A stretch of 64,000 bases of DNA from Paenibacillus sp. NAIST15-1 (GTDB lineage: Bacteria > Bacillota > Bacilli > Paenibacillales > Paenibacillaceae), in contig NZ_BBYF01000010.1 in the NCBI RefSeq assembly GCF_001894745.1, positions 1 to 64,000 of the forward strand. Reading direction: 5' to 3'. Of the stretch, positions 1,143-58,529 are shown one piece after another; the first letter of the stretch is position 1, and each line of letters begins with the position of its first letter. Both the position numbers and the translations under genes were made by a program. The notes under the pieces were generated by a model. The model saw only the letters and a list, made by a program, of their open reading frames with translations, made no database searches and was not told where the DNA came from.

Positions 1143-1219
1143 GGAGCTGTGGTGTAGAGGCCTAACATGCCTGCCTGTCACGCAGGAGACCGCGGGTTCG
1201 AATCCCGTCAGCTCCGCCA
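1143..1219 (+). tRNA. tRNA-Asp (GTC)
   Basis: 77-base cloverleaf. Anticodon stem cctgc/gcagg encloses the loop ctgtcac, giving GTC at 1177-1179. The discriminator base before the encoded CCA is G (position 1216). That matters because the T-box leader of hisS-aspS in this window appears to be built to read this tRNA. Confidence 0.95.
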
Positions 1220-37007: not shown

Positions 37008-37135
37008 TTCGCTGCCTTTTTACATGCAGGTGTGTTGGTAATAGAAGGATAAAATGGCGTATGACAGGAACGCTTAACTAGCGCCGCCCCCTGTGTGTTG
37101 TGACTGCAATATGGGACTGCAAGGAGGATGACGAC

Positions 37136-37582
37136 ATGAAGGTAGTTGTACAGCGCTGCAAGGAGGCGCATGTGGATGTTGATGGAGCAACGGTTGGCAG
37201 CATAGGACAGGGTTTAATGCTTCTTGTGGGCATTACACACGAAGATACAGATCGAGATATCGAATGGATGGCGGATAAACTTGCAGGTCTTCGTATTTTT
37301 GAAGATGAATCTGGAAAAATGAACAGCTCAGTGCAGGATGTAGGCGGCAGCATTTTATCGGTGTCTCAGTTTACCCTATACGGGGATTGTCGGAAGGGAA
37401 GACGCCCGAACTTCATGGCAGCGGCTCGTCCTGAGCAGGCTGAACCACTATATGATTTATTCAATGAACGTCTCCGTACACTAGGGTTGGAAGTTGCGAC
37501 TGGGAAGTTCGGAGCCATGATGGATGTGCATCTTATTAATGATGGACCGGTTACGCTAGTCGTCGATAGCCGTACCGAATAA
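37136..37582 (+). CDS. dtd: D-aminoacyl-tRNA deacylase
   Basis: The 148-residue product has the DTD motifs [10 protein letters not shown] (residues about 77-86) and the C-terminal NDGPVT cross-subunit motif. It removes D-amino acids from mischarged tRNAs. The ATG at 37136 follows aaggagg by 8 bases; an in-frame ATG twelve codons upstream lacks such a site. It sits in its conserved place after relA. Confidence 0.95.
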
Positions 37583-38015: not shown

Positions 38016-38044
38016 TTGACTTTAGCGTGCTACATCCTTACAAT
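38016..38044 (+). promoter_or_regulatory. Sigma-A promoter of the hisS-aspS leader
   Basis: TTGACT (38016-38021), a 17-base spacer, then TACAAT (38039-38044). Transcription would begin near 38051, at the start of the T-box leader. Confidence 0.75.
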
Positions 38045-38050
38045 GTTCTT

Positions 38051-38437
38051 TATATTCCGACTTTACAGTAAATGAAAATGATGATTTGATGACAGGAACA
38101 AGTAATTCGTACCCACATATGCAGAGAGAGGTTCCACGGCTGGAAGAACCTTGATGATGGACGGATGAATGACATCCTCGAGAACCTGCGGCGAAGCGAG
38201 AAGCATCGATCTTGGATAAAGCATTGAGCTCTCAAGGTAGGACACCTAATGTCCAAGTAGCCGTATGGCGTATGACGTACGTTACACGTGAATGAAGCGT
38301 AATCGGAGATTTCAATGTGCAGCCGATATAGGGCACAATGCTTGCGATTGCGGAATGTGGGTGGCACCACGGGTGAATGGAACATACCATCTCTCGTCCC
38401 TTTGCAAATGAATCATTTGCGGGGCGGGAGATTTTTT
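38051..38437 (+). promoter_or_regulatory. T-box riboswitch controlling hisS-aspS, predicted to sense tRNA-Asp
   Basis: The leader of about 390 bases has T-box hallmarks: the AGTA turn (38101-38104), a Stem I distal section with gcagagag and ggctggaag, the T-box bulge TGGCACC at 38362-38368, and a terminator of ctctcgtccc/ggggcgggag type ending in TTTTTT at 38431-38436. The stretch after the Stem I helix reads GAATGACAT, placing GAC (aspartate, 38171-38173) in the specifier position; CAT (histidine) overlaps it by one base. The variable T-box base is C (38365), which pairs with a G discriminator. The tRNA-Asp in this window has G there; bacterial tRNA-His normally has C. Both signs point to tRNA-Asp. 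Leader identity is secure; the specifier call is inference by alignment with the alaS leader. Confidence 0.88.
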
Positions 38438-38472: not shown

Positions 38473-39723
38473 ATGGCATATCAAAAACCTACGGGTACGC
38501 AGGATTTGCTGCCTGGCACGGTTGAAATTTGGCAAACGGTTGAGCAAAAAGCTCGGGATATCTGCCGTCGTTTCAACTTTAAGGAAATCCGGACTCCAAT
38601 CTTCGAACAGACTGAGCTGTTCGAGCGTGGTGTTGGTGAAACAACGGATATCGTTGAGAAGGAAATGTATACGTTCCAGGATAAGGGCGACCGCAGCATG
38701 ACACTGCGTCCAGAGAATACTGCAGGCGTAGTTCGCTCGTATGTAGAGAACAAGCTGTATGGTGAACCGGACTTGACGAAGCTGTATTACATGGGGCCGA
38801 TGTTCCGGTATGAACGCCCGCAGGCGGGTCGCTATCGCCAGTTCCACCAATTCGGCGTGGAAGCCTTCGGGTCTGTTGATCCGAGCTTAGACGCTGAAAT
38901 TGTTGCTCTTGGCTATCAGTTCATGAAGGATATTGGCTTGAGCGGTGTTCGCGTCGAGATTAACTCTGTCGGCAACGCACCGAGCCGTGCAGCTTACCGC
39001 GAGACTTTGCTTGGCTTCCTGATGCCGATGAAGGAGACACTGTGCAAGGATTGTCAATCCCGGATGGAGCGTAATCCGCTGCGTGTGCTCGACTGTAAGG
39101 TCGATCAGGACAAGTTCACGAATGCACCATCGATTCTGGACAGCTTGGATGAAGAATGTGCAACACACTTCGAGAAGGTGAAGCAGCACTTAACGGCGAT
39201 GGGCGTCGAGTATGAAGTGAACCACCGTCTTGTGCGCGGCTTGGATTACTATACGCATACGGCATTCGAATATAAGGCCCAAGGGATTGGAGCCATTGAT
39301 ACCGTGGGGGGCGGAGGCCGCTACAATGGTCTAGTCGCTGATATCGGCGGTCCTGAGCAGACAGGTATTGGCTTCGGTATAGGGATGGAGCGAATTGTGC
39401 TTCTGCTTGATAAGCAAGGCATTGCCTGCAATGAGCAGCCGCCGCTTGATATTTATCTCGTAGGACTTGGTGAACAAGCAGAGGATGAGGTGACGAAGCT
39501 GTTGTACGCATTGCGTACAGCTGGCATCGCTGCCGAGAAGGACTACCAAGGACGCAAGATGAAGGCGCAAATGAAATCAGCCGATCGCATGAAGGCTCGG
39601 TATGCAGGAATTCTCGGCGATGACGAATTGGCACGTGGAGAGATCGCGTTGAAGCATCTGGAAACAGGAGAGCAGCAGTTCGTGAAGCTGGAGCAATTGG
39701 CTGAAGCAATCGAAAGAGCTTAA
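38473..39723 (+). CDS. hisS: Histidyl-tRNA synthetase
   Basis: The 416-residue class II synthetase has motif 2 ([22 protein letters not shown]), the histidine-specific [14 protein letters not shown] motif, and a motif 3 region [17 protein letters not shown]-terminal anticodon-binding domain covers about 325-416. The ATG at 38473 follows taggagg; an upstream in-frame ATG lies within the leader terminator and is rejected. It is the first gene of the T-box-controlled hisS-aspS operon. Confidence 0.97.
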
Positions 39724-39782: not shown

Positions 39783-41591
39783 ATGATGTACAAAACGCAT
39801 CAGTGCGGAAAAATTACAAAAGAACGAATTGGCGAAACGGTTACCCTGAATGGATGGGTACAACGTCGTCGTGACTTGGGCGGGGTATTATTTATCGATT
39901 TGCGCGACAGAAGTGGTCTTGTACAGGTCGTATTCAACCCTGATTTCTCTCAAGAGGCTCACGACATTGCAGATCGTGCGCGTAACGAGTATGTGCTTGC
40001 TGTTCGCGGTACAGTCGTTGAACGCGATGCAGAAACGGTGAACCCGAACCTGCCAACAGGAGAGGTAGAAGTACGCGTAACGGAAATTGAAATCTTAAAT
40101 GCAGCGAAGAACCCGCCATTCTTCATCGAAGACGGCATTGAAATTGATGAGTCCCTTCGTTTGAAATATCGTTACCTCGATCTTCGTCGTCCGGAAATGC
40201 AAAAGACACTGATGCTTCGTTCCAAAGCAACAAAAGTATTCCGTGATTTCCTGGAAGAGAACGAGTTCATCGATGTAGAAACACCAATCTTGACGATGAT
40301 TACGCCAGAAGGCGCACGTGACTACCTAGTACCAAGCCGTGTGCATCCAGGCGAATTCTATGCACTTCCGCAATCGCCACAAATTTTCAAGCAGCTGCTT
40401 ATGGTATCCGGCGTTGAGCGTTACTATCAGATTGCGCGCTGCTTCCGCGATGAAGACTTGCGTGCAGACCGTCAACCAGAATTCACTCAGGTGGACATCG
40501 AAACGTCCTTCATGTCTACAGAGCAATTGCATGAAATGATGGAGCAATTGATGGTTCGTTTGTTCAAGACAACATTAGGAGTAGATATTCCTACGCCATT
40601 CCAACGCATTACGTATCAAGACGCAATGGAGAAATACGGCTCCGATAAGCCGGATCTTCGCTTTGGCCTTGAGCTTGTGGATGTGTGTGATATCGTACAG
40701 AACAGCGGCGTTAAAGTATTCGGGTCTGTTATTGAAAAAGGCGGCGTTGTAAAAGTATTGAATGCAAAAGGCTGCGGAACATGGAGCCGTAAGGACATCG
40801 ACGACTTGGCACCGTATGCAGCACGCTATGGTGCGAAAGGCTTGGCTTGGATTCAAGTGAAGGACGGCGAATTCCGCGGTCCGATCGTGAAGTTCATGAG
40901 CGAGGAAGAAATCGCATCCCTTCGTGAGCGCACAGGCGCAGAAGAGGGAGACTTGCTGCTCTTCTCTGCGGACAAGCGTAAAGTGGTATACGATGTGCTC
41001 GGCAACCTTCGTCTCTTGATCGGCCGCCGCTTGAACCTGATCGATGACAATGCGTTCAAGTTCGCATGGGTTGTTGACTTCCCATTGCTTGGCTACGACG
41101 AAGAAGCGAAGCGTTATGTAGCGGAACACCATCCGTTCACACGTCCGAAGGACGAAGACTTGGCATTGTTCGATACTGATCCAGGTCAAATCCGCGCTCA
41201 AGCTTATGACCTTGTCTTGAATGGTTATGAAATCGGCGGCGGTTCGATGCGTATTTACAACCGCGATGTACAAGAGAAGATGTTCGCGGCGCTTGGCTTC
41301 ACACCAGAAGAAGCACAACAAAAATTCGGCTTCTTGATGAATGCCTTCGAATATGGTACGCCTCCACACGGCGGTATTGCATTCGGCTTGGATCGCCTCG
41401 TAATGCTGCTTGCAGGACGTACGAACTTGCGCGAGACGATCGCATTCCCGAAAACGGCAAGCGCAACAGACTTGATGACAGATGCGCCTAACGTAGTTGA
41501 TAAGTCTCAGTTGGATGTTTTGCATATTAAGTCGACGTACAAGAAGAAAGAAAAAGAAGAGAAGACTCAAGAGAATAACGAAGAGCAATAA
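39783..41591 (+). CDS. aspS: Aspartyl-tRNA synthetase
   Basis: The 602-residue product has an N-terminal OB-fold anticodon domain ([22 protein letters not shown] region), the class II core with [24 protein letters not shown], and the GAD insertion domain at about 290-420 that marks bacterial AspRS. Motif 3 ([17 protein letters not shown]) follows. The tail is lysine/glutamate rich. Two adjacent ATGs (39783, 39786) follow gaggag. It is cotranscribed with hisS across a 59-base gap that holds no second T-box. Confidence 0.97.
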
Positions 41592-41676: not shown

Positions 41677-41760
41677 CGCTATGTTCTTGAGCCCGTCTAT
41701 GGTACGATAGACGGTAGTAGATTAAGCATCTAAGATGCGAACTTGATGCATGATGGCTTT

Positions 41761-41799
41761 TTGTGCAGAAGTGTTGCCATTTGTGCAGAAGTGTGCCAA
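41761..41799. repeat. 20-base tandem duplication upstream of tcdA
   Basis: ttgtgcagaagtgttgccat is followed directly by ttgtgcagaagtgtgccaat, two near-identical units. It lies in the region between aspS and tcdA. Confidence 0.7.
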
Positions 41800-41874
41800 T
41801 TGACGGGCAATATTGCACATCACACGATGCATAAACCATGCATGGATAATGAGACGCAGGAGGAAAAGGACGTT

Positions 41875-42618
41875 ATGCTGCATCAATTTTCACGTACGGA
41901 ACTCGCAATTGGACCTGAAGGATTAGAGAAGCTGAAAAACAGCACAGTTGCAGTTCTAGGAATCGGCGGTGTCGGCTCAATGGCTGCAGAGGCATTGGCA
42001 CGCACCGGTGTAGGGCGAATTATTCTCATTGATAAAGATACAGTCGATATTACGAACATTAACCGGCAAATTCACGCCTTGACGACAACAGTAGGTCAGA
42101 AGAAGGCGGAGTTGATGCGTGAGCGGATTAAGCTAATTAATCCAGATTGCGACGCGATCGCGCTTAACATGTTCTATACGGAAGAAACCTATGAGGAACT
42201 GTTCAAGTATGAGCTAGATTATGTTGTCGATGCATCAGATACGATTGTATATAAAATTCACTTGATCAAAGAATGTTTGAAACGTAAAATACCTATCATT
42301 TCTAGCATGGGTGCGGCGAACAAGATGGATCCCTCGCGCTTCCAAGTGGCTGATATTTCACAGACATCTTACGACCCGATTGCCCGCGTCATTCGGCAAA
42401 AGCTGCGCAAGGATGGCATTCGCAAAGGGGTCAAGGTTGTGTTCTCTACAGAGGAGCCGATCAAGCCGCGTGAGGATGTTACGGAGCGCATCGTACCGGA
42501 TACTGCCCCTGATATTCGCAAGGCGAAGCAGCCGCCATCCAGTAACGCATTCGTACCGCCGGTAGCCGGGCTTATTATGGTCAGTGTCGTGATTCGCGAT
42601 ATGCTGGCAGACTTGTAA
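41875..42618 (+). CDS. tcdA: tRNA threonylcarbamoyladenosine dehydratase (TcdA/YrvM)
   Basis: The 247-residue E1-like protein has an adenylation motif VLGIGGVGSMAAEALARTGVG near the N-terminus, then IDKDTVDITNINRQIHA and the catalytic-type ISSMGAANKMDPSRF region. This is the TcdA/CsdL branch, which cyclises t6A to ct6A at tRNA position 37 using ATP. The ATG at 41875 follows aggagg; a longer in-frame form begins inside the tandem repeat region and lacks a ribosome binding site. The order aspS-tcdA-rarA matches B. subtilis aspS-yrvM-yrvN. Confidence 0.9.
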   Translation: MLHQFSRTELAIGPEGLEKLKNSTVAVLGIGGVGSMAAEALARTGVGRIILIDKDTVDITNINRQIHALTTTVGQKKAELMRERIKLINPDCDAIALNMFYTEETYEELFKYELDYVVDASDTIVYKIHLIKECLKRKIPIISSMGAANKMDPSRFQVADISQTSYDPIARVIRQKLRKDGIRKGVKVVFSTEEPIKPREDVTERIVPDTAPDIRKAKQPPSSNAFVPPVAGLIMVSVVIRDMLADL

Positions 42619-58212: not shown

Positions 58213-58529
58213 TTGGATAGGTATATGGAACAAAACGAAGACGAAAACGAGTAAGCTGAAGCCCTAGGAACAGAGAGAAGATTCCGGATCGGCATATGCC
58301 GGCTGGCTGCAAGAATCTTCACCTTGAAGAACAGCTGAACGCTAATTTCTGAGTGTGAATGGAACTTCACCGGGACGTACCCGTTATCAACGTCGAGGCG
58401 ATCGCAGACGCTTTTCTTGCCCTTGCTTGCATGATACGCAGGCTTGATAAAATGGGGGATGATGTATGCGATAACCAGGGTGGTACCGCGATATATGAAT
58501 CGTCCCTGATTTTCAGGGGCGATTTTTTT
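58213..58529 (+). promoter_or_regulatory. T-box riboswitch of alaS (tRNA-Ala)
   Basis: Stem I elements include cgagta, cagagagaagattc and the matching ggctgcaagaatcttc. The specifier stretch after the cagct helix reads GAACGCTA, giving GCT (alanine) at 58341-58343. The T-box bulge is TGGTACC at 58481-58487; its variable T pairs with the A discriminator expected of tRNA-Ala. The terminator tcgtccctga/tcaggggcga plus TTTTTTT ends the leader. Uncharged tRNA-Ala should relieve termination and raise AlaRS. Confidence 0.9.

Follow-up and report, generated by a model that had tools for sequence, protein, structure and literature searches.

An aspartate specifier in the T-box leader of the hisS-aspS operon of Paenibacillus sp. 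NAIST15-1, and asparagine codons in the same position in other Bacilli

The T-box leader ahead of the hisS-aspS operon of Paenibacillus sp. NAIST15-1 carries the aspartate codon GAC in its specifier position, and we consider, with a probability of roughly 0.9, that it acts as a transcriptional attenuator tuned to tRNA-Asp and controlling both synthetase genes. We infer the binding and the switching from what is established for T-boxes; the anatomy of the leader, the register of its specifier, the ends of the tRNAs and the conservation among relatives are direct observations. The histidine codon CAT that overlaps the specifier is probably incidental, a by-product of T-box spelling. The core idea of an Asp/His T-box in front of hisS-aspS is already published (Gutierrez-Preciado 2009, as represented in the papers that cite it).

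Anatomy of the leader and its operon

All positions refer to the window, that is, the whole stretch of 64,000 nucleotides that was analysed. Its relevant features are the following.

38016..38044, + strand: probable sigma-A promoter, TTGACT-17 nt-TACAAT, read by eye
38080..38404, + strand: T-box leader, covariance-model match to RF00230 (full model 1-219), 73.1 bits, E 6.4e-16
38094..38097, + strand: 5' strand of the lower Stem I helix, AGGA, pairing with 38175-38178
38101-38104, + strand: AGTA motif, 3' of the AGGA strand with three bases between
38171..38173, + strand: specifier codon GAC (Asp), in the covariance-model columns of the calibrated register
38173..38175, + strand: overlapping CAT (His codon), with U38175 paired to A38097 in the model
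38175..38178, + strand: 3' strand of the lower Stem I helix, TCCT, 4 bp with AGGA at the usual spacing
38362..38365, + strand: T-box UGGC, variable base C38365, complementary to the tRNA-Asp GCCA end (G73)
38389..38437, + strand: intrinsic terminator hairpin and U run, from a free-energy fold
38473..39723, + strand: hisS, histidyl-tRNA synthetase (TIGR00442, 1.2e-151)
39783..41591, + strand: aspS, aspartyl-tRNA synthetase (TIGR00459, 1.6e-246)
1143..1219, + strand: tRNA-Asp(GUC), G73, the predicted ligand, from the gene sequence
58229..58510, + strand: alaS T-box leader used for comparison, GCT specifier, UGGU

The original prediction of a T-box followed by hisS and then aspS is confirmed by the covariance model and the protein family matches. 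Its coordinates for GAAT (38167-38170), GAC, A38174, the overlapping CAT and TGGC with its final C38365 are correct, as is its comparison with the alaS leader, which reads GAAC-GCT-A and TGGT. In a genome-wide search the hisS leader is matched at E 1.6e-15. Its score lies below the Rfam gathering score of 93 for RF00230, as do those of 15 of the 30 T-box matches in the genome, the alaS leader among these.

The terminator folds at -26.1 kcal/mol (z -5.9), a value equalled in none of 200 shuffles. Free-energy folding by itself does not recover Stem I, 119 of 200 shuffles folding equally well, and the antiterminator, which is paired in the covariance-model alignment, folds otherwise by free energy when its stretch is isolated (z -0.8); the structure of these two elements is therefore drawn from the covariance model and from comparison. 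Just upstream of the operon lies a gene for D-Tyr-tRNA deacylase (window 37100-37579), and a ThiF-family gene (41743-42615) lies downstream.

How would such a leader operate? Uncharged tRNA-Asp(GUC) would make two contacts: the anticodon would pair with GAC in the specifier loop of Stem I, and the GCCA end with UGGC in the bulge of the antiterminator. The paired tRNA would stabilise the antiterminator over the terminator at 38389-38437, and hisS and aspS would both be transcribed; charged tRNA-Asp would be unable to make the second contact, and transcription would stop. Because hisS shares its operon with aspS, it would come under regulation by aspartate status. The original proposal of one tRNA-Asp signal for both synthetases is supported in that the leader, judged from its sequence, looks like an Asp-specifier T-box.

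The specifier and the overlapping histidine codon

The register was calibrated on ten chosen leaders of the same genome, the amino acid of each being set by the downstream gene. The specifier columns of the covariance model hold the cognate codon in all ten, namely CUC (leuS), UGG (trpS), UAC (tyrS), CAA (glnS), AUC (brnQ), GUC (valS), UUC (pheS), AUC (ileS), AUG (metS) and GGC (glyQ), and in the hisS leader of the window they hold GAC. The T-box database TBDB, in the portion of its description used here (PMC7778990), gives preference within the specifier bulge to bases 2-4, counted from its 3' end; these too are GAC in the window leader, and CAU lies two bases beyond, using the paired U38175. 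The Asp register makes 4 bp in the lower helix, whereas the fold that the original prediction named as contrary to it, with CAT or CAC in the specifier slot, forms no base pair at the usual spacing and never more than 2 bp.

A caller that used structure and ignored codon identity points the same way. Its tighter version, run on 201 leaders, ranked GAC (98) or AAC (37) first in 135 and other codons first in 66; the next commonest codon after these two numbered 8, CAC came first once and CAT never. A noisier version gave the top rank to GAC or AAC in 76 of 204 leaders and to CAT in 6, which include the four closest kin of the window leader, where CAT was tied with GAC. Covariance-model alignments of 30 hisS leaders gave 18 GAC and 9 AAC, with three slipped and unread (L141, L186, L194); L172 had no T-box covariance-model match at 1e-4.

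Within the Paenibacillus group, 79 named leaders (L048-L127, L116 being without a leader) were compared together with that of the window. All 80 have GAC as specifier; 69 of these calls were scripted and 11, with two candidates each, were settled by eye, under a pattern in which the second and third bases of the codon were preset, and a stricter script seeking GAC reproduced 80/80. The nearest named relatives by HisS identity are Paenibacillus apiarius (89%), P. profundus (88%), P. dendritiformis (88%) and P. popilliae (86%). The Asp specifier of the original prediction is thus upheld both by the calibrated columns and by the group, and the window leader is an ordinary, well-conserved Asp T-box.

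GAC is followed by A in five leaders of the group (the window and its closest kin, L048-L051), by U in 53 and by C in 22; CAY is accordingly present in those five and absent in 75. A pyrimidine right after the specifier in 75/80 leaders runs contrary to the T-box rule, stated in the relevant passage of PMC7583486, of a conserved purine as the usual base 3' of the codon. After this base the lower helix begins.

The ends of the tRNAs are as originally claimed. The tRNA-Asp genes read (n=3) end in GCCA with G73, both tRNA-His genes in CCCA with C73, and tRNA-Ala in ACCA with A73, so C38365 pairs with G73 and not with C73. The original prediction took this variable base as independent evidence for aspartate. 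The fit to G73 stands, but the evidence is weaker than was implied, since U replaces C in 50 of the 80 group leaders (C in 30, the window included) and TBDB leaves the discriminator unused for His T-boxes, noting in the part of its text drawn on here that in tRNA-His this base may be engaged in internal pairing (PMC7778990). Both C and U are able to pair with G73 and neither pairs with C73; G, which would be the partner of C73, is found in none of the 80.

What, then, is the standing of the overlapping CAT? Any C-ending specifier followed by A and then a pyrimidine contains CAY automatically. We read specifiers in 26 of the 30 T-box matches of the genome, with gene names partly assigned by eye (L015, L028, L029 and L030 were left out). 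Among the 17 other C-ending specifiers, A follows the codon in nine and CAY is present in eight of these nine: the leaders of tyrS, brnQ, valS, pheS, ileS, ilvB, glyQ and one thrS. The alaS, tyrS, pheS and other T-boxes of the genome share with the hisS leader a common grammar (GAA, codon, usually a purine, helix), UGGN and a terminator; they differ from it in the specifier amino acid, and most precede a gene of matching amino acid. The original suggestion that the GACAT overlap hints at reading by tRNA-His is not supported by these counts, the same overlap occurring in 8/17 other leaders and missing in 75/80 of the group.

Several of the other T-boxes merit mention in their own right. L015 (G000:C3:49427-49631) precedes a 261-aa ORF with no NCBIfam (1e-10) or Pfam (1e-5) match. 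An adjacent pair with CTC (Leu), L004/L011 (G000:C1:407314-407939), stands before a leuA-like gene, and an adjacent strong and weak T-box with a TTC specifier, L001/L030 (G000:C34:3176-3580), before a transporter-like gene, both genes being named by eye. L018 (G000:C26:59558-59791) is a Phe-type T-box (TTC) whose next ORF encodes a copper-amine-oxidase-N domain protein, not the product of an amino acid gene.

Competing readings of the leader

The published alternative is a leader that senses both amino acids, GACAU being read as GAC by tRNA-Asp and as CAU by tRNA-His in a shifted Stem I, with either starvation inducing the operon. Two structures sensing both tRNAs were suggested for the hisS-aspS T-box by Gutierrez-Preciado (2009), as cited in PMC4342826, and a two-codon T-box binding two tRNAs is cited in PMC4206432. 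Another paper citing that study (PMC5313534) credits it with the suggestion that aspartyl-tRNA is the main partner of the GACAC in the hisS-aspS T-box. A figure legend of Wels (2008) singles out ligase genes occupying the second place in an operon that they share with another ligase gene and that has a T-box of different specificity (PMC2494555). As far as the citing papers describe them, the hisS-aspS T-boxes of bacilli and lactobacilli resemble the window in operon, leader and an Asp codon overlapped by a His codon. They differ in reading GACAC where the window has GACAU; moreover, the overlap is not kept within the genus of the window, and AAC takes the place of GAC in many families.

Dual reading would require a shifted helix, and registers were compared over 212 hisS leaders on this point, a register being counted when its lower Stem I helix had 4 bp or more, with a spacer of 2-3 or, more loosely, 1-4 bases to the AGUR motif. 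At a spacing of 2-3 the Asp/Asn register reaches this length in 160/212 leaders and the His register, displaced by two bases in the 3' direction, in 6/212; the 160 is not a blind count, since the features that it scores also guided the choice of positions, which was made partly by eye. Among the 110 leaders with CAY the corresponding numbers are 77 and 4, and the His-register helix is the longer in seven, three of them in family f10. When the spacing is relaxed to 1-4, the Asp/Asn register is found in 161/212, the His register in 74/212, and registers -1 and +1 in 49 and 63. These His-register helices occur in 58/102 leaders without CAY, whose shifted slot shows no His codon, as against 16/110 with it: although many leaders allow a shifted Stem I to be drawn, it does not accompany a His codon. 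The lower helix is preserved across leaders through A-U, G-C, U-A and C-G pairs.

Some of this leaves room for dual reading. Each of the four closest kin can form 4 bp in either register, the His one needing one extra spacer base and displaying CAU, and outside Paenibacillaceae CAY is kept in 51/64 GAC leaders, where a second reading could be accommodated. In C. acetobutylicum, Asn-related and two-codon T-boxes reportedly studied by Saad in 2012 and 2013 likewise offer two candidate codons; both tRNAs are said to have been shown to bind, and tRNA-Asn is said to be read there by a leader of the tRNA-dependent amidation pathway. The second codon of the window leader, unlike the one in that two-codon T-box, lies half in the helix, and dual binding would here be putative. 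For the window we regard dual sensing as improbable: the shifted helix has 2 bp at most, such helices are commoner where CAY is lacking, the overlap recurs in leaders of other amino acids in the same genome, the two codons are not conserved together in the group, and a T-box G to match C73 occurs in 0/80 group leaders and 0/140 wider ones.

A leader in which CAU is the true specifier and GAC the incidental codon would suit the position of hisS as first gene of the operon, and the S. aureus hisS-aspS T-box has been called a histidine T-box in the cited portion of PMC7927825. We judge this very unlikely, given that the covariance-model register and the helix register of the window both favour GAC, that CAY is absent in 75/80 group leaders and that UGGC mismatches C73. 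Still less credible is a degenerate T-box remnant answering to no tRNA. The score below the Rfam cut-off and the weakness of the Stem I and antiterminator folds by free energy could be taken for decay, but half of the genome's T-box matches also fall below that cut-off, and the window leader retains an intact terminator, UGGC, specifier and lower helix, all conserved in relatives. Control by tRNA-Asp is the reading that we retain.

Asparagine codons in the specifier slot of wider Bacilli

A hand-read table across the wider Bacilli comprises 141 hisS leaders from 170 loci, 29 loci having been dropped (17 that lacked a T-box core and 12 in which no specifier could be read). Outside Paenibacillaceae, 64 leaders have GAC (34 families) and 72 have AAC (19 families), two families being common to both. 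The Asn codon in the specifier slot of 19/51 family groups other than that of the window was unforeseen, and we found no earlier report of AAC specifiers in hisS-aspS leaders in the accessible passages of open-licence papers. CAY follows AAC in 57/72 of these leaders, about the same rate as for GAC. The gene order is stable, with aspS following hisS in the same orientation in 244/250 loci. L130 has no T-box base within the allowed distance, and that base is G in none of the 140 hand-read leaders. G73 is present in tRNA-Asn of all 13 genomes where it was read (14 genomes examined), and C or U at the T-box base therefore suits tRNA-Asn as well.

On a HisS tree covering 104/140 sequences the GAC/AAC label changes 8 times, and none of 500 label shuffles gave a number as low. 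We would give even odds to the hypothesis that the hisS-aspS specifier of Bacilli has switched repeatedly between tRNA-Asp (GAC) and tRNA-Asn (AAC), following the tRNAs charged by AspRS, the product of the second gene, and not those of the enzyme encoded by the first.

S. aureus is reported to make asparagine solely by the tRNA-dependent route (Mladenova 2014, as cited in PMC4206432). Genomes lacking both AsnA and AsnB number 16/39 with AAC leaders vs 1/41 with GAC leaders (AsnB limit E 1e-60, one partial match counted as present). The notion of AAC leaders as a sign that a genome lacks asparagine synthetase is only partly borne out: the 16 cases are confined to three families, and AsnB occurs in every sampled genome of 15/19 AAC families. 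AsnRS is absent alike in 3/39 AAC and 3/41 GAC genomes.

Family f4 (L206-L235) stands apart, with A as the T-box base in 29/29 leaders read. Its UGGA pairs neither with G73 of tRNA-Asn and tRNA-Asp nor with C73 of tRNA-His in the genomes read; a contested His T-box with UGGA is mentioned for C. glutamicum in the cited section of PMC3896937. The f4 leaders, which combine UGGA with AACAC, may represent drift to tRNA-His. Several other T-boxes in one f4 genome look matched.

For Paenibacillus, these results speak to the published ambiguity over whether the hisS-aspS switch senses aspartate, histidine or both. They also carry a general caution: where a specifier ends in C, the spelling of T-boxes leads one to expect an overlapping CAY, whose presence is by itself no evidence of dual sensing. 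The part most worth following is the putative repeated switch between GAC and AAC. If it is true, the AAC leaders would form a tie between tRNA-Asn and a non-discriminating AspRS, and leaders with an Asn specifier make the link between the tRNA specificity of AspRS and its own regulation testable.
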